Below, in pieces: positions 1 to 60,832 of a stretch of DNA of 64,000 bases. The DNA lies in the NCBI RefSeq assembly GCF_963583255.1, contig NC_084803.1, forward strand, positions 3,569,621 through 3,633,620, in the 5' to 3' direction. Under the pieces are notes generated by a model that made no database searches, had not been told where the DNA came from, and was given only the letters and a program-made list of their open reading frames with translations. Source of the DNA: Pyrus communis (lineage: Eukaryota > Streptophyta > Magnoliopsida > Rosales > Rosaceae). The translations under genes and the position numbers were made by a program. Position 1 is the stretch's first letter. The number at the start of each line of letters is the position of its first letter.

Positions 1-1
1 C

Positions 2-454
2 ACCAGGAGATCAACAACTGGGTATGTGTTTAAGCTTGGTTCTGGAACCATCTCTTGGTGTAGCAAGAGACAGCCGACGGTATCATTGTCAACCACAGAA
101 GCAGAGTATAGAGCAGCAGCAATGGCAGCTCAAGAGAATGTATGGCTGGTACAGTTGATGAGTGATCTACATCAACCAATAGATTATCCAGTACCATTGT
201 ACTGTGATAACCAATCGGCCATTCGCTTGGCGGAAAATCCAGTCTTTCATGCAAGAACTAAACATGTGGAAGTGCACTACCACTTTATCAGAGAAAAAGT
301 TCTACAAGAAGAGATTGAGATGAGACAAGTCAAGACGAATGATCAAGTTGCGGACTTGTTCACAAAAAGTTTAAGTACAGGCAAGCTCGAAAATTTTCGC
401 TGTTTGCTCAGCACAGTGCAAAGAATGAGAGCTGACATTGAGGGGGAGTGTTGA
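2..454 (+). CDS. Ty1/copia polyprotein C-terminus (RNase H), partial
   Basis: This is the 3' end of a copia-type pol reading frame, open from the window edge to the stop at 452-454; the 5' part lies outside the window. The peptide has the copia RNase H signatures [15 protein letters not shown], the [16 protein letters not shown] stretch and QVADLFTK near the end. RNase H degrades the RNA strand during reverse transcription. The stop codon overlaps the first bases of the LTR at 450, as is common in copia elements. No frameshift is seen in the part present, so the insertion may be fairly young. Family identity is very secure; whether the element is complete cannot be judged here. Confidence 0.94.
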
Positions 455-753
455 AAATCAATGTCAAAGTTAGGCAAGGAAAGTTAGTCAATGTTAGGTA
501 TGATTGAATAAAAATTATTAGGTGCAATTAATGTGTTTTGTGTGGTAATAAATAATCTTAGTTTAATCATTTGGTTTGCTATAAATACCTAAGTTCTCAA
601 GCATTGTAAATCATTCAAAGAAAAACAAAGCCTAGAGCTAAAGAAGAAAAGCTTTGCTAATTAGTTTGTTTTGTGAGCTTTCTTTAAGTGTGTGCTCTAT
701 TTTCTTCTTCTTGGGATCATTAGAGTTATCTTGGATACTCTTCTTATTCAACA
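450..753 (+). mobile_element. 3' LTR of the copia element
   Basis: The LTR starts TGTTGAAAAT just after a polypurine tract (about 439-449, TGAGGGGGAG) and ends TTCTTATTCAACA, giving about 304 bp with TG...CA ends. It contains a TATA-like box near 579-587 and a long purine-rich stretch after it. The 5' LTR and the 5' target-site copy are outside the window. Bases right after 753 (GAGAG) would be the downstream target-site duplication. The right end is inferred from the terminal dinucleotide and from where GATA-like coding sequence resumes. Confidence 0.82.
576..590 (+). promoter_or_regulatory. Putative LTR TATA box
   Basis: GCTATAAATACC lies 126 bp into the LTR, about 70 bp before an ATG at 654. 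In copia LTRs the TATA box marks the start of element transcription; in a 3' LTR the same box can drive outward transcription into flanking DNA, here into the GATA exon. Use in the plant is not shown by sequence. Confidence 0.45.
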
Positions 754-803
754 GAGAGGTGGGTAAAAGTAATAATAATATTAGGCCAAGGGCAGTAAAA
801 TGG

Positions 804-1626
804 ATGTCCTCCAAGATGAGGTTGATGCAAAAGATGACCAACCCAGATCTCGCGCCAGCCGGTACCACTGAAAATCATATACTTGCAGCTGCTGGGAATG
901 CTGAGCATAAATTCCAAGTTGTACAGCATCAAGAAAATAGTGATCAAACCAGCTTTTCCAGAAATAGCAACAATACTACTCCAGATGTTAGGGTTTGTTC
1001 TGATTGTAACACCAGCACAACCCCACTTTGGAGAAGCGGCCCTCGCGGTCCCAAGGTAAATTAAATGATGTACTTACTGTCTATAAAATATTCTATGTTG
1101 TAAAGACTGTAAATCTAAACTGCACACTCTCATCCATAAATAAACATGGCTGATGGTTCAAAATTATAGTCTGACAGTAAGTGATAAGGCAAATATATGT
1201 TGGGTAGATATAATATGTTCATGAATCAAGTATTCAGCTGTGTGCATATGTGTGTTGTTTCAGTCACTATGCAATGCATGTGGAATCCGACAGAGGAAAG
1301 CTAGAAGAACCATGGCAGAGGCTGCGGCTGCTGCTGCAAATGGGTTTGTAGTCGGCGCCACTGACACTTCATCTGCCAAGGGTAAGGTGGCCAACAAGGA
1401 GAAGAAACCGCGCGGAAGCCATAGTACTAATGTTACACGATGCACGAACAAGAGCAAGCTCATTGTCACCGACACTGCATCAGTACCTCCCAACAACAAA
1501 ATTAATAGTAATAATAATAAGATTTGTTTCAAAGGTTTGGGTTTTCAACGAGTGTTTCCTCAGGATGTTGCTGAAGCTGCAATCCTTCTAATGGAGCTGT
1601 CTTGTGGCCTAATCAATCACTCTTAA
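804..1626 (+). CDS. GNC/CGA1-type B-class GATA factor, 5' part displaced by copia LTR
   Basis: Two exons are visible: up to 1055 and 1264-1626 (GT at 1056, CAG at 1261-1263). They encode a plant type-IV zinc finger, CSDCNTSTTPLWRSGP then SLCNACGIRQRKARR, of the form C-x2-C-x18-C-x2-C. Upstream is WMSSKMRLMQKM, a block typical of GATA21/GATA22 (GNC, CGA1). The C-terminus AAILLMELSCGLI is the LLM domain of this class. Such factors act in the nucleus on chloroplast development, greening and cytokinin/GA responses. The family normally carries a longer N-terminus; here GATA-like sequence begins just after the LTR at 754. The first in-frame internal ATG is 804. The frame is also open back to ATG 654 inside the LTR, giving a possible 254-aa chimera. 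The ATG at 800 is in another frame and stops soon. Whether the locus makes protein is unknown. Confidence 0.85.
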
Positions 1627-2171
1627 TTTTCATATTCCATTACATTTTTGTTCTCCCTCATCTTTTAATATCGAGGATTTTGTTTTGTTTTCGTTCCTTT
1701 TCTGTGGTTTTACTAGAGTGTAGGTTGGGGTAATAAAACCAAAGAGTTACTTGAAGAACATTAATTTGCTGAAATTGTAACTGTAATTTATTTTACGCAT
1801 TGGTAAACTGTGAGCTATTGATTAATGGTGGAAATTAGCACATTTGAACGAGTAGTCAAGTTAATTAGAGCATTGAGTCTCTATCTTAATCCAAGTTTGA
1901 ATATGGTTTTTCTCATCAATTTAGATTAGATTAGTATACCACTTCTCTTAAAAACTAATGACATGTTACTTACAGGAATGAAATGAATGAAAATCATTTT
2001 GGATTTTTGAGTTTCATGTGCTTACTAATGCATATAGAATTTAAAAAAAAAATTTATTTCATAATCCAATACTAAAAAAGTAGAAAACACTCCTTGCTTC
2101 TTCAAATCCTAAATTTCCAATTCTTAACTTCTCTCGTTCCTATTAAGTAAAATATTGTCATAGACTCATAT
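1627..2171. other. GATA 3' UTR and spacer
   Basis: T-rich sequence follows the stop codon, with possible poly(A) signals (AATAAAA near 1732). No further coding region, RNA gene or clear repeat was seen. Confidence 0.5.
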
Positions 2172-2625
2172 GCACTGTTTTAAAAATACCCCGTGTAGTG
2201 CCACCTAGGCGCTAGGTAGTTTGCCACTGTCCCGATTAATGCCTAGACATTTGAAATTTTAGAAAGGGGGCCTAGACCTATTGAGGCGCCCGCCTAAACA
2301 CGCTTAGATTGCGACTCATTTAGACAGAAAATAGATAATTTTCATTTTGCATTTTCTTTTTAATAAATTGTAAGAGAGTTGTTGAATACTTAAATGAATA
2401 CACATTATATTCTTGTTCCCTATGTTTACATTATGTTTCAATACTTCATAATATATGTCATTCTATTTTGTAATTTATAATGTAATTATATATATTTTAA
2501 GTATAAACAAACACTTATTTACAGGACATATAATAGATTTACTTAAATCCGTTTAGGCGCTAGACCCCAGTTCGCCGTTCGACTAGCGCCTAACTTCTTT
2601 TAGAACCGAGGTCATGTGTAATGGG
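2172..2625. repeat. Foldback repeat with GCGCCTAGGC-type ends
   Basis: The left part contains CACCTAGGCGCTAGG and GAGGCGCCCGCC; the right part contains TTTAGGCGCTAGACC and GACTAGCGCCTAAC, which is the left motif inverted. Outer ends read TTTTAAAAATACC and TTTTAGAACC. The middle is AT-rich and non-coding. This looks like a non-autonomous DNA element. Exact ends and target duplication are not resolved. Confidence 0.5.
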
Positions 2626-2849
2626 CGGTGCTTATTGAAGATAAGAGAGTTAGAAAAGTAGGTCTAAAAGAAGGTTATGAAATTGAGCTCATGAGTGGAT
2701 GTCATCAAATGAAATGAAACCTCTCGGCCCATGGTTCATGTGATCAAAGACGGTCAAAGATGATTCCATGGTAATTAAGAGATGCAAAAATGTTTCTGTG
2801 AGTATTTCTGACATATAGAATTTCACCACCAATTGATCACTCTTTTACC

Positions 2850-2880
<31 letters not shown>

Positions 2881-3406
2881 GAAAAGGTCAAACTGAGCCT
2901 AAAACATTACGACAGTGACCTAACTTCCCTCGTACCAATTGTAAGAATTCTAAGGAGTTTACAAATGCACCTACCCTTTGACTAAAACTAACTCCACGTT
3001 CATCAATCTTATGTTGAAAATTAGATCTTGAATGTAACTTTCACATTTAGTCAATACATACTTTATTATCTCTAAGGGGAGTAGGTTTTATTCAAGCAGC
3101 TGTAGAAAATTTGCAACAATACAAGTTACATAGCTGATGTGTATGTATTTATCAACAATTGGGTAATTGTGTCTAGTCTCAAATTTTGTATTCAATTACA
3201 AATTGTAAGTAATTGAGTTAAAATCGTTTGACTATCATACCATCACTGATATTAAATATAGTTATAATTTGAGTAATTGTGTAATTGTAACTGTCATGCA
3301 GTTATTTTGAGTTGACCGTTTAACAAAATAGAGTAAAAAAAATTTAAAATTAATTTTTTTCCCTTGTGTATGAGGATGTTGAAACAATGTCCTTTTTAGC
3401 CAAACT
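2626..3406. other. Spacer without recognised gene
   Basis: AT-rich spacer with a long A-tract at about 2850-2882 (interrupted by G), possibly the tail of a degraded retroposon. Nothing else could be supported. Confidence 0.5.
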
Positions 3407-3577
3407 ATTTAGTACTACGGTCTAATGATATTCTTCTTCACTTCTTAGTAAGAGGTATTAAGTTCAATTCTTGTCAAATGCGAAGTTATACCACATTATT
3501 ATGTTAAGTCCATTACAAGGCTTAGCCCACTTTACCATCCATTTTAGTGTAAATACTATCGTTTGTTAAAAAAAAAA
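3407..3577 (+). mobile_element. tRNA-type SINE, copy 1
   Basis: The copy starts AGTACTACGGTCTAATG (box-A-like), has a box-B-like AAGTTCAATTCTTGTC, then a body with GGCTTAGCCCACTTTACC and ends GTTTGTT plus an A-tail. The same order of motifs recurs at about 21821, 38127 and, reversed, 53357. It is diverged from the other copies, so it is probably old. Confidence 0.75.
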
Positions 3578-3993
3578 TATATATCATTCCAACAATGCCA
3601 TTACCTGCAATTTTTTTTTTTCCTTTTTTTCTTCATTTCCAAAATTGTAAATCCTTTTTATTTCTATATTGTGATAAAATTGTGGATACCAAGCATTTTC
3701 CACGCATGCCACCGCAACCTAATTTTAACTCTGAAAAGTACACAGTGTGGATTCCCCCGGGGATTAAAAACTGGAAAGGTTGAGACCAAGTACTAGATTG
3801 TCAGCCACAGACATCTCTCTCCTCTCAAGGATGATCCCTTGTTTTTTATTTTACCAAATTTACCCCACCACCAAATACAGTTGGCCCCACCAAAATGTAA
3901 ATCTGGCAATTAATTACAAATTTGGAATTGGAATATTCAACCAAATTTCCGTTACCACAAATGTTCCATCATTATTCATCTGCTTAGATCTAA

Positions 3994-4818
3994 TGACGTG
4001 TTTATTAATTCGTAATCAAATTGAGCGGAATTGGACTGAGAGAGAATTGGATTGAGGATAAATTGAAATGAAGTGGAATTAGAATCAGATTCCTGTTGAA
4101 GTTGTTTACTAAAACTGTCTGGAATCGGAATAGGAATAATGTTGAGTCTATATAAATTATTTACTAATTCACTTCAATCGGAATGAAAACTAGGTTGATT
4201 ACTATATTGCCCTTACATAAATAACTTATTTTCATACTAATTAATTAAATTAAATTCTTAATTAAATTTATATAATAAAAGTCATCTATATAAGCATATA
4301 TAAATGGGTTTTATTTATTTATTAAAAGATGGCAAGAATGATGTTGAATCTATATAAGTTGTTTACTAATTCACTTTAATCAGAATGAAAAGTAAGTTGA
4401 TGACTAAATTGCCCTTGCATAAATAAATTATTTTCATACTGATTAATTAAATTAAATTCTTAATTAAATTTATATAATAAAATTATCTATATAAATATAT
4501 ATATATATAAATAGGTTTTTATTTATTTATTAAAAATGACATAATAAGTGTCAAATGAAGGTAATGTTGGGATGATAAGAAACAAGTGAGGGCATAATAG
4601 AAATAAAAGATGCATTCCCGATTCCCTTACCCTCAAGGAATTTAAATACCTCACAAAACTAGGGAATCCCGTTCCTCCAATTTCAGGAATTAGATTCATT
4701 GTTTCGTGTGGGCTCCACCACTTTTTGATTCCTTAATATTTAGTAAATACTGGAATACTCCGTAATCGAAATTCAATTCTCTTTTCTTATTCTGATTACC
4801 CTTACGTAAACGTGCCAT
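3994..4818. mobile_element. Large MITE-like element with internal tandem duplication
   Basis: The left end (ACGTGTTTATTAATTCGTAA) and the inverted right end (GATTACCCTTACGTAAACGT) are similar, with GAATTGG-rich subterminal sequence on both sides. Inside, a segment of about 200 bp is repeated in tandem (about 4138-4335 and 4341-4550), with shared stretches such as TTGCCCTT(A/G)CATAAATAA and ATTAATTAAATTAAATTC. No coding capacity is seen. Class and target duplication were not settled. Confidence 0.6.
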
Positions 4819-5634
4819 GAGTATGTTGGAAAAATGTTGGATGCAATTATGTTCGTATTTCACACGTAACACATAAAAGTTAAAAAAGTGATAAATACAA
4901 AAAAATATATTACATGACTACACTTAAATTTCGAGATTTTATTGTTAGACTGACGACCTAATCCTAACCTTAGATTAATTTTCAAATTTTGTTCTCATTG
5001 TGTGTGAGGTGATAAAGGAGATAAGTCTAATGTGATAGAAAAGCTGCCAACAAATTACAAAAAGATTCCCAGATTTTCAACTGCAAATCCAGCGGATATT
5101 CATCAAAAACTCCATTGGTTGGCGCGTGTTTTTTCTCCCTCCCCTCTCCTCCCTCAATACTATTTGGAGAAACCCATTCATTCAGATCCATTGAAACTCA
5201 ATCTCCTTTCCTCCAATCCCTTCCATACGTTCATGATTTTGTGAACCATAATTTCTCTATTTTTTTTGTGGGTTTTTATGCCCCCCAAAATAATCCTGTC
5301 CTTTTCTCCATAGGTGCCCAGTCACCCACCACCCACTACCCACCACCACCAGCAGACCTTGAAACTCCATCGCATTTTCTCCAAAATTAATATAAATGAA
5401 TTATTTAATATTCAAATATTTATATATAGACAAAAGCCGCCACTGATTTCACTTATCAAAAACAAACCCACAACCACCAACTTGTTTTCTCACTCCCTCC
5501 AATATAATAACAGAGAAAGAGAAAAAGCAACAAACTTTGGAGGAAAAATTCATATTTTTACAAGTTATCTCACCAACCCAGTCCGCATTTCGAGCACCTC
5601 TGGGTTTTTCCAAACGCAGTCGTTTTCAGCTTCC
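4819..5634 (+). promoter_or_regulatory. Upstream region and 5' leader of GLDC
   Basis: This gene-free stretch runs into the P-protein gene. It is AT-rich up to about 5100, then pyrimidine- and CCACC-rich, as expected of a plant 5' UTR. The frame of GLDC exon 1 is open back to 5314, but codons before 5635 are low-complexity and unlike a transit peptide. No single promoter element could be assigned with confidence. Confidence 0.4.
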
Positions 5635-8600
5635 ATGGAGCGCGCGAGGCGGCTGGCGAACCGGGCTTTCGTGAAGCGCTTGGTCTCGGAGGCGAAGCAG
5701 TTCCGCCAGAACGAGAGCTCTGTTCTGGGCTCCTCCACCTCCCCTGTTCTCTACGCGCCGTCGAGGTACGTCTCCTCACTCTCCCCATGCTCCTTGACGC
5801 GCTCCAGTCCCAGATCAGACTCGCTTCTCTCGAGAAACGCGTCCCACAATGCCGGGTTCCAAACACGGTCGATTTCCGTGGACGCATTGAAAAACAGCGA
5901 CACTTTTCCCCGCCGCCATAACTCCGCCACGCCGGAGGAGCAGACCAAAATGGCGGAGTTATGCGGGTTCGATGGCCTTGATTCGCTGATCGACGCCACC
6001 GTGCCCAAATCGATTCGACTCGAAACGATGAAGTTTCCGAAATTCGATGAGGGGTTGACAGAGAGCCAGATGATTGAACACATGAAGAATTTGGCCTCCA
6101 AAAACAAGATTTTCAAGAGTTTTATCGGGATGGGATATTACAACACTTATGTCCCACCTGTAATTTTGAGGAATATTATGGAAAATCCAGCTTGGTACAC
6201 TCAGTACACTCCTTACCAGGCTGAGATTTCCCAGGGGAGGTTGGAATCTCTGCTCAATTTCCAAACTTTGATCACTGACCTCACCGGCCTTCCCATGTCG
6301 AATGCATCACTGCTGGACGAGGGGACCGCGGCTGCGGAGGCAATGGCGATGTGTAACAACATCCAAAAGGGAAAGAAGAAAACTTTTGTCATTGCCAACA
6401 ACTGTCACCCCCAGACCATTGATATTTGCAAGACTAGAGCTGATGGTTTCGATCTTAAGGTTGTTACCGCGGATCTTAAGGATGTTGATTATAGTTCGGG
6501 TGATGTCTGTGGTGTGCTTGTTCAGTATCCGGGGACTGAGGGCGAGGTTTTGGACTATGGGGAGTTTATTAAGAATGCTCATGCCAATGGGGTTAAGGTT
6601 GTGATGGCATCTGATCTGTTGGCGTTGACAGTGTTGAAGCCGCCTGGTGAGTTTGGGGCGGATATTGTTGTTGGTTCTGCGCAGAGGTTTGGTGTTCCAA
6701 TGGGGTATGGAGGTCCTCATGCGGCTTTCCTCGCCACCTCACAAGAGTACAAGAGGATGATGCCAGGGAGAATTATCGGTGTTAGTGTTGACTCCTCAGG
6801 GAAGCCTGCGTTGCGTATGGCGATGCAGACAAGGGAGCAGCATATCCGGAGGGACAAGGCTACCAGCAACATTTGCACTGCTCAGGTTGGATGCTATTCT
6901 TCATTTGATATGTCTTATGATTTCCTTTCTAGGGTGAACTGTTGAAAGTTTGAAATTTCGATCCAATGATAGTAGCATTTATTTCAATTTGATTGACTTG
7001 GCTTTGTTTGATTGGGTATATTGTTTGTTTTATAGGCATTACTTGCAAACATGGCTGCTATGTATGCTGTATATCATGGACCCGAAGGCCTTAAAACCAT
7101 TTCCCAAAGGGTTCATGGTCTTGCTGGGGCATTTGCAGTTGGATTGAAGAAACTTGGAACAGTGGAAGTTCAGAGCCTTCCCTTCTTCGACACTGTGAAG
7201 GTTAAGGTTGCTGACGCACATGCAATTTCCGATGCTGCTAACAAGCTTGGATTAAATTTGAGAGTAGTAGACTCGAGCACTGTAAGTTTTTTTTATCAGT
7301 TATTTGACTAAATGTTCTCTGAGGACGGAGAATGGAGTGCTTTTACTTCACGAGGTTGCTGAATGTTAACTCCTTTTCAGATCACTGTTTCGTTTGACGA
7401 AACAACTACCTTGGAGGATGTTGACAAGCTTTTCAAAGCTTTTGCTTTGGGCAAGCCTGTAAGTATTTCATATCTTTACCATAAAGTTGATAATTTCAAT
7501 TTATTATAAAGTGCATCCATTTATTAAGAGCTTTGTTTAATTTTCAGGTGCCTTTCACTGCTGCATCTCTTGCACCAGAAGTTCAGCCTGCAATTCCTTC
7601 TGGGTTAACAAGGGAGAGCACGTTTCTAACCCATCCGATCTTCAACTCGTATGCGTCTTTCCAAATGATTTGAACTCTCACAGCCTATATTTGAAAACTA
7701 GACTGAGTTTTTTCATTTACTGTCTATCTATTAGGTATCATACCGAGCATGAGTTGCTACGATACATTCATAAGTTGCAATCGAAAGATCTGTCTCTATG
7801 CCACAGTATGATTCCCTTGGGATCTTGTACCATGAAATTGAATGCAACAACTGAAATGATGCCAGTGACATGGCCTAGTTTCACCGATATTCACCCTTTT
7901 GCTCCTACAGAACAGGCTGAGGGTTACCAGGTAACTCAAAACGTTAACTTACAAAGGAACTTAAAACAGTTACTTTTGTTCCCCTAAATTTCTTTTTGCT
8001 ACGTTACATTCCTTCATGCAAATAGAAATCTGATGCTATATGTTGTAAAATAATAAATTTCAGGAAATGTTCGGAGATTTGGGTGACCTATTATGCACCA
8101 TCACTGGGTTTGACTCTTTCTCTTTGCAACCCAATGCCGGAGCTGCTGGAGAGTATGCTGGGCTGATGGTTATTCGGGCATATCATTTCGTAAGGAATCC
8201 TGAGTTTTACATTTTTGTTTTCCCTCTTTATAATATGTGTTAGCAAGCGCTTTGCTGTCGAGCTTAAACAAACACTTTACCTTGAGGTCTTGACCTAAAG
8301 GTTTTATTCTTGTTACTAATCACGCTGAACCATCCCACTGTAGGCAAGAGGCGATCACCACCGCAATGTGTGTATTATTCCTGTTTCGGCACATGGTACC
8401 AATCCTGCTAGTGCTGCAATGTGTGGAATGAAGATTGTAACTATTGGAACTGATGCCAAGGGAAACATCAATATTAAAGAGCTGAAGAAGGCTGCTGAAG
8501 CAAACAAGGATAACCTATCAGCTTTTATGGTAAGCATCCTACGTCGGAAGAGATATCATTTGAAAAGATCAGATACGGATTTGTGTCATTTGAAAAAGAT

Positions 8601-59136: not shown

Positions 59137-60226
59137 CCACACCTAACCGACTCCCTCCCAACCATACCGCCACAGATGTAGTTCTAAATTGAATGGAACC
59201 CACTTCAATTTGAAATTTTAATTTTAGAGGAATAAAATATGTTTGGATTATGTCAAAGGGTTATGCAACTGAAGGATTGGTTGGGTGCTCTTTACACCGG
59301 CTTTATTTAGGTTTTTTTTGTTTTTTTTTATTTCTCTTATCATTATTATTAAATAAAATTATATGATGGTTTTTTGTTAAAACTCAAAGTTTGGAAACTT
59401 TTTTCATTAGTTTTTTCTTATAAAATATCGTTGTATTAAAAAAAATTAAAAATTAAAAACTCTTAACACCATTAAGAATAAAAATACCATTAAAATTTTT
59501 TTTTGACAACGCATGCCAGAATTTTTATTTAAAACCCGAGATTTTTCTGGAAACTACGGAAGATGAATCATCACTCTCCCAACTTATGTACTCTAATATT
59601 ATTCTAACCACTTTGATGAGGTATTATTCAAATTTCATAAATATAAACAATGCTTTCACGAAATTTCCACCTCATGTTCATCTTCTTGGCTGCTTGCCAG
59701 CCAGTTGCAAACTTTTTTTTTATCATCCAGGTTCGGACATTGGCTAAACCAAGACATTTCTCAATATAGCAGTTATTAATTCTCTTAATTTGGAAGTAAA
59801 CACAGTTTTTAAGTAAAAGACGATTGCATTGATCATAAAGGAGAGATTTTTCAATATGTCAAGAATATGCTTTTGTACACTAAAAATCATAATATAAGTG
59901 ATTGGATATTTTAAGAAAAAAAAAATTCAATCACTTGTAAAATACATCTTATGTTCAGACCGTATTACTGACAATCTGAAATATTTCTCTATATATAGAT
60001 AGATCCCACCGGCCAGTGGCCACTTAATAAAAAATAAAATAAAATCCATCTCAAGGGCATATCCGTCCTAAAAGAAAAATACCTCCAACCATAAATGTGC
60101 CCCCCTCTCGTGTTCGTATGATGGTTCACTTGCCCTAGAACCACTAGCTCTCATTCATTTTCTTCTTCTCCTTCTATGCTCTAATTAATTCCGTGTTGGT
60201 TTTTTCACACGTGTGAGCAAACAAAC
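59137..60226. other. Spacer and PYL upstream region
   Basis: AT-rich with a MITE at 59840-59990. The 120 bp before the PYL start are pyrimidine-rich and contain CACACGTGTG at 60207-60216, a CACGTG-type (G-box/ABRE core) palindrome 10 bp before the start codon, probably in the leader. Confidence 0.5.
59840..59990. mobile_element. MITE with GGAGAGATTTTTCA ends
   Basis: 151 bp; the left end GGAGAGATTTTTCAATATGTC and the inverted right end AGAGAAATATTTCAGATTGTC are similar. It shares its left end with the 65-bp insertion at 15412. Interior contains complementary TGATTGG.../...CAATCA stretches. Non-coding. Confidence 0.65.
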
Positions 60227-60832
60227 ATGGATGCTTGCCACGCTCCGCCATATGGTCTAACCCTAGCTGAGTTTTCCGAGCTGGAGGGTCTCATCGACAC
60301 GTACCACAAATTCGAGCCGTCGCCGAACACATGCACGTCGCTAATAACGCAGAAGATCGAAGCTCCGGCACAGCAAATTTGGCCGTTGGTCCGGAACTTC
60401 GACAACCCTAAAAAATACAAGCACTTCATCAAGAGCTGCAACATGAAAGGCGACGGCGGAGTTGGGAGCATAAGGGAGGTGACGGTGGTTTCGGGGCTCC
60501 CGGCGTCGACGAGCACCGAGAGGCTGGAGATTTTGGACGACGAGAAACACATAATAAGCTTTAGAGTTGTGGGAGGGGAGCACAGGCTTAATAACTATAG
60601 GTCGGTTACTTCGGTTAATGAGTTCGTTAATTGCGAAGGTGAGGAGGGGAATAATCAAGTGTACTCGATTGTTTTGGAGTCGTATGTGGTGGACATACCA
60701 GAAGGGAACACCGGGGAGGATACAAAGATGTTTGTGGACACTGTGATCAAGTTGAACTTGCAAAAGCTTGGAGTGGTGGCTATGGCGGCGAATGTGCATG
60801 GCAACACTGGAGGAGGACATGATCAATCATGA
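60227..60832 (+). CDS. PYL2: PYR/PYL/RCAR abscisic acid receptor, PYL2-like
   Basis: Intronless 201-aa START-like (Bet v 1 fold) protein. ABA binding closes the gate and latch loops, and the receptor then inhibits clade A PP2Cs, releasing SnRK2 kinases; it acts in cytosol and nucleus. The gate SGLPA is at residues 89-93, the latch GGEHRL at 116-121, the ligand-contact lysine is in YKHFIKSC (Lys65), and the C-terminal helix KMFVDTVIKLNLQKL is complete. The stretches TCTSLITQ, IWPLVRNFDNP and SVTSVNEF resemble PYL2 most, so the subgroup is PYR1/PYL1-3. All key residues are present. It ends with a Gly-rich tail. Confidence 0.95.
   Translation: MDACHAPPYGLTLAEFSELEGLIDTYHKFEPSPNTCTSLITQKIEAPAQQIWPLVRNFDNPKKYKHFIKSCNMKGDGGVGSIREVTVVSGLPASTSTERLEILDDEKHIISFRVVGGEHRLNNYRSVTSVNEFVNCEGEEGNNQVYSIVLESYVVDIPEGNTGEDTKMFVDTVIKLNLQKLGVVAMAANVHGNTGGGHDQS

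Follow-up and report, generated by a model that had tools for sequence, protein, structure and literature searches.

A probable recent Copia-type insertion in exon 2 of a pear LLM-domain B-GATA homeolog is a likely loss-of-function allele

Near the left edge of the window (the whole stretch of 64,000 nucleotides of the Pyrus communis genome analysed here, located on C1), a Copia-type element very probably inserted recently, and in the sense orientation, into exon 2 of the C1 homeolog of an LLM-domain B-GATA gene, with loss of function as the likely consequence. The first-pass annotation had proposed an insertion into a GATA gene, and this is borne out by an exact right border, by an exon 1 fragment on the far side of the element, by an element-free homeolog on C15, and by an ortholog whose protein is uninterrupted. 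Its further remark that the insertion may simply have killed the gene is supported by the upstream exon 1, the intact homeolog, and the pairing of the window gene with P0001, a 353-aa GATA factor of Pyrus × bretschneideri. Positions 1–3600 of the window were read and translated, and contained the following features.

2..454, + strand: 3′ end of a polyprotein with a Copia-type RNase H tail, as judged from database relatives; the ORF is open from the left edge of the window
434..448, + strand: polypurine-tract-like stretch GACATTGAGGGGGAG, adjoining the 3′ LTR on its 5′ side
449..753, + strand: 3′ LTR of 305 bp, TGTTGAA...TTCAACA
580..587, + strand: putative TATA-box-like sequence TATAAATA within the LTR
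754..758, + strand: predicted 5-bp target site duplication, right-hand copy (GAGAG), from the sequence and the equal flanks of sister pairs
754..1055, + strand: 3′ portion of the GATA exon 2 that the element splits, 97% identical to residues 139–239 of P0001
800..871, + strand: first ATG after the TATA box, in the strong context AAAATGG, with its out-of-frame ORF of 23 codons
804..806, + strand: first GATA-frame ATG after the TATA box, the internal Met of WMSSKMRLM, in a weak context
996..1055, + strand: first part of the GATA zinc finger PF00320 (Pfam E = 2.5e−16, 59.4 bits, cut-off 26.8)
1056..1263, + strand: intron between the finger halves, GT...AG, 208 bp; the homeolog has a 164-bp intron at the same position
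1264..1626, + strand: GATA exon 3, with the second finger half, the basic region, the LLM motif AAILLMELSCG, and the stop codon; 91% identity to P0001 residues 238–353

The LTR has ordinary TG...CA termini that form 7-bp inverted ends (TGTTGAA/TTCAACA), and it is repeated at full length elsewhere in the genome with different flanks. An LTR with such ordinary termini does not fit the two Rosaceae subfamilies described in PMC5659011, whose LTRs end unusually. The LTR had been placed at 450–753; its end was correct, and its real start is 449. GATA coding sequence had been read immediately after this end, and the alignment with the C15 homeolog indeed restarts at window position 755, 2 bases past the LTR border. 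The homeolog reads GGTAGAGGAGGAGAAGAGGAGGGTAAAAGT at the site where the window reads LTR-GAGAGGTGGGTAAAAGT; therefore, the element lies within exon 2 in the orientation of the gene, upstream of both WMSSKMRLM and the finger. The right-side GAGAG of the window element's own target site is visible, and the left copy falls in a masked stretch.

The missing first exon, which had been predicted to lie upstream, was found as a fragment at C1:3564530-3564619 on the same strand. It comprises 30 codons, 28 of which encode the same residue as in P0001, and it is preceded by sequence homologous to the 5′ flank of the C15 copy. The fragment is approximately 5.5 kb upstream of the LTR, with a masked run between them. 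Because the 5′ LTR, the left junction, and the left target copy are all within this run of N, we infer the continuity of exon 1 with the element from position, strand, and homeology. Provided that the length of the masked run is true, the element is estimated at approximately 4.95 kb (the distance from exon 1 to the LTR minus the spacing in the homeolog); the run could, however, be an assembly gap. The insertion could also be present in a heterozygous state, or the junction could result from an assembly join.

A database search with the window protein returned 2,612 matches, 120 of which were listed, and the best was P0001 (93% over 99% of the query). When the 487-Mb genome was searched with the GATA exon, there was one other DNA match, on C15 (92%). 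The copy on C15 has an uninterrupted frame of 355 aa in three exons separated by GT...AG introns, and it lacks the element. Its protein is identical to P0002 at 349 of 355 residues and to P0001 at 314 of 347, whereas the window protein is identical to P0001 at 204 of 215 residues and to the C15 protein at 196 of 214. In a phylogenetic tree of 26 rows (25 selected database proteins and the window protein, with no Arabidopsis row), the window gene and P0001 were paired (support 99/93) with P0002 outside, in a Rosaceae group apart from that of apple P0042 and P0068, Rosa P0091, and Prunus P0020. From this pairing and the match between the C15 protein and P0002, we regard P0001 as the ortholog and the C15 copy as the homeolog. 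The P0001 protein runs uninterrupted across the insertion point, suggesting, at the level of protein and not of DNA, an empty site in the P. × bretschneideri ortholog. A genome search with P0001 gave 29 matches, among them two further loci (C1:13.26 Mb and C10:4.78 Mb) that match in the corresponding pair of exons; the C15 homeolog and these two related loci are thus still present. The sequence cluster of P0001, the ortholog of the broken locus, has 2 members compared with 14 for that of P0002, the homeolog type, and the locus may be lost or unannotated in many pears.

What remains of the gene is well preserved. The type IV zinc finger is recognised as PF00320, the exon ends had been correctly placed at 1055 and 1264, and neither of the visible window exons contains a stop or a frameshift. 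LLM-domain B-GATAs (the GNC and CGA1/GNL class) are defined by an invariant L-L-M in the available part of a review of the class (PMC4337238). The window gene bears EAAILLMELSCG at its C-terminus, as do P0001 and P0002 (P0003 and P0004 carry EAAMLLMELSCG in its place), and it also resembles the class, as far as that source describes it, in its GATA finger, in its IRQRKARR basic stretch, and in the long N-terminal part seen in the intact homeolog. Against the C15 homeolog, dN/dS was 0.23 and dS 0.168 over 214 codons. In a search for relaxed selection, three outgroup rows were used to polarise the differences between the window protein and P0001, with the LTR-coded column excluded: the window side accounted for 5 changed columns and the P0001 side for 9 (5 of these 9 being gap columns), and three were ambiguous, including that of the junction codon. 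This comparison with P0001 revealed no window-side excess, and no later decay of the remnant is visible. The continued production of a short protein would likewise be expected to leave the remaining frame intact, which counts against a null allele.

The element belongs to a young, high-copy LTR family that has been active recently. In the 40 of 480 genome candidates that were scored, the window's own included, LTR bases 1–305 were matched end to end at 97–100%. When 30 of these 40 were examined as loci and sorted by their flanks, 16 were of the 3′ type and 14 of the 5′ type, and no solo LTR was found among them. The 29 copies other than the window's included 28 that aligned to its LTR without gaps, with 1 to 8 bases different, and one that aligned with gaps; the nearest copy differed at 1 of 305 bases. 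The stretch GACATTGAGGGGGAG precedes 15 of the 16 3′-type LTRs, the window's included, and the sequence at the sixteenth is partly N. Because the 5′ LTR of the window element is hidden, age was judged from sister pairs and the nearest copy instead of its own LTR pair. Seven LTR pairings were computed, five of them clean 5′/3′ pairs and two from a single three-LTR array. The clean pairs differed at 0, 0, 0, 1, and 0 of 305 bases, and all five had equal 5-bp flanks. The near identity of the sister LTRs and the single difference from the nearest copy suggest that the insertion is probably young.

The array (G000:C10:6133570-6140655, loci L020–L022) may derive from recombination between copies. 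Its neighbouring LTRs are identical, the 5-bp flank GTCGG occurs at both of its outer ends, and L022 contains a partial LTR match. Neighbouring listed LTRs are approximately 3.36–3.47 kb apart, and the element may occur in a short and a long form. N was present in the fetched stretch of 15 of the 29 loci other than the window's, so that 16 of all 30 hold N. The 14 N-free loci are L013, L015, L018–L024, L026–L028, L032, and L033, and 13 of them have a listed neighbouring LTR approximately 3.4 kb away.

The pol content inside the window is the 3′ tail of the polyprotein, the stop codon of which overlaps the beginning of the LTR, and some of its database relatives carry the name of a Copia element. 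There were 1,404 relatives of the RNase H tail; among the 120 listed, 3 were named “Retrovirus-related Pol polyprotein from transposon TNT 1-94.” Searches of Pfam (at the default threshold) and of the PDB with the tail (2..454) gave non-significant matches only. The element resembles TNT1-type Copia elements in these names and in the 5-bp duplication, seen here in the sister copies, a likeness judged from the RNase H tail, the LTRs, and the flanks. The sequence ATTGGTATCAGAGC, which follows the 5′ LTR of the sister copies, fits an initiator-Met tRNA primer site, as in TNT1-type elements. In public records, many plant relatives of the tail are called “secreted RxLR effector protein 161-like,” apparently an annotation error that is being propagated.

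For the gene itself, transcripts from the native promoter would be expected to end in the element or to run through it. If GAGAG is duplicated and followed by the TGTTGA of a 5′ LTR, translation would stop after one Cys codon, giving a product of approximately 140 aa without the finger. Exon 2 of the homeolog is 465 bp long; therefore, a transcript that omits it would stay in frame at the cost of the first finger half. Both the early stop and exon 2 skipping would thus yield proteins without a complete DNA-binding domain, which makes loss of function the most likely state of the allele. A complete finger would be obtained only through an internal in-frame ATG, such as that at 804, on a transcript from the LTR. 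When truncated N-terminal products were sought with a 140-aa query, 2 proteins were retained from 71 candidates, and neither ended at the insertion point. Both were rejected as truncated products of this locus: P0121 covers exon 1 and, as judged by eye, runs into intron 1, and P0011 agrees with the C15 type at 141 of 161 residues and with P0001 at 131 of 158, and so is closer to the former.

The most striking claim of the first-pass annotation was that an ATG at 654, inside the LTR, opens a chimeric protein of 254 aa in which a hydrophobic LTR-coded start is fused to the GATA domain. The frame does run without a stop from 642, through the LTR border, as far as the donor site at 1055, and the length of 254 aa is valid for this open frame. 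In contrast, the codon at 654 is TTG, and no ATG occurs in any frame from 580, the TATA box, to 799. The ATGs of the LTR (461, 491, 500, and 531) are all upstream of the TATA box and open ORFs of 8, 6, 3, and 5 codons, respectively; the only one in the GATA phase, at 531, meets a stop after 5 codons. In other words, no LTR AUG opens into the GATA frame, so an AUG-started chimera as described is absent from the sequence, and the protein would need non-AUG initiation. The openness itself argues little for such a product: an open run through the LTR of the observed 37 codons or more arose in 5.6% of 20,000 dinucleotide shuffles, which is not clearly beyond chance, and we rejected the openness as a notable feature. 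We therefore regard the chimera as most improbable, and the correction at 654 removes the claim. A bacterial promoter scan was set aside because it does not apply to plant DNA.

A different way for the gene to be rewired instead of killed would be for the 3′ LTR to act as a promoter, with the remnant translated from ATG 804 as a short LLM B-GATA, an option that the first-pass annotation had also raised; the 204-aa translation includes the finger and the LLM motif. This is consistent with the sense orientation and the TATA box at 580, and with the fact that the finger, the LLM motif, and the splice sites are all intact. Young LTRs in plants are usually silenced, however, and the first AUG, at 800, which the first-pass annotation had not noted, has a strong context and is out of frame, whereas that at 804, starting 4 bases later, is weak, with T at both −3 and +4. 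The further GATA-frame ATGs at 816, 825, and 834 all lie within the out-of-frame ORF 800..871. Because closely spaced AUGs compete in yeast and HeLa cells, according to the available text of PMC9743702, 804 could nevertheless be used. The accessible portions of two other papers also lend this reading some plausibility: the LLM domain, rather than protein length, tracks functional differences in LLM B-GATAs (PMC4337238), and LTR elements are expressed in pear buds and fruit (PMC4715297). Against it, no near-identical short protein was present among the 120 listed of the 2,612 matches, and on balance we consider it unlikely. A bolder extension, to which we attach very little probability, is that a long LLM B-GATA has been converted into a short LTR-driven form (204 aa from 804) that would keep DNA binding and the LLM motif, that the AUG pair 800/804 would throttle its output, and that stress- or tissue-dependent control of greening would differ between pear haplotypes. 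It also seems quite unlikely that the element landed in a duplicate that was already truncated or dead, or that an assembly error joins the LTR to the exon. The hidden left side would allow this, and the clusters of 2 and 14 sequences hint at fewer annotated intact copies, but exon 1 and 5′ flank homology are present on the expected side, both visible exons are free of stops and frameshifts with a dN/dS of 0.23, and the border falls at the exact LTR end. Disruption of exon 2 by a recent insertion therefore remains our preferred explanation.

Insertions of this kind are well known and common in such plants, and that in the window is a new instance. The available part of a survey of ‘Suli’ pear reports 734 genes that aligned to LTR elements and were probably disrupted (PMC4715297). 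The window resembles those cases in having an LTR element within a pear-type gene; however, as described there, that survey aligned elements to annotated introns, whereas the insertion described here is in a coding exon. In the accessible main text of a paper on the pear GATA family, no word starting with “transposon” occurs (PMC8618624), and we found no prior report of the window insertion in the open-licence literature that was searched. The role of LLM-domain B-GATAs in greening has been reviewed, as the accessible part of PMC4337238 indicates. The window thus holds what is probably a null allele at one of two homeologs, in a gene class that regulates growth and greening, making it a candidate natural knockout; the insertion is a possible polymorphic marker in pear and could be informative about homeolog redundancy. 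Its weight would rise further only if transcription from the LTR leads to the short GATA protein.

Elsewhere in the window, two tandem copies of approximately 200 bp lie downstream of the GATA gene at 4134–4535 (a 147-nt core, 91% alike, at a spacing of 202). A long ORF at 5314–6945 reads like what we assume to be the start of a glycine decarboxylase P protein, and an ORF at 60185–60832 presumably encodes a PYR/PYL-type abscisic acid receptor.
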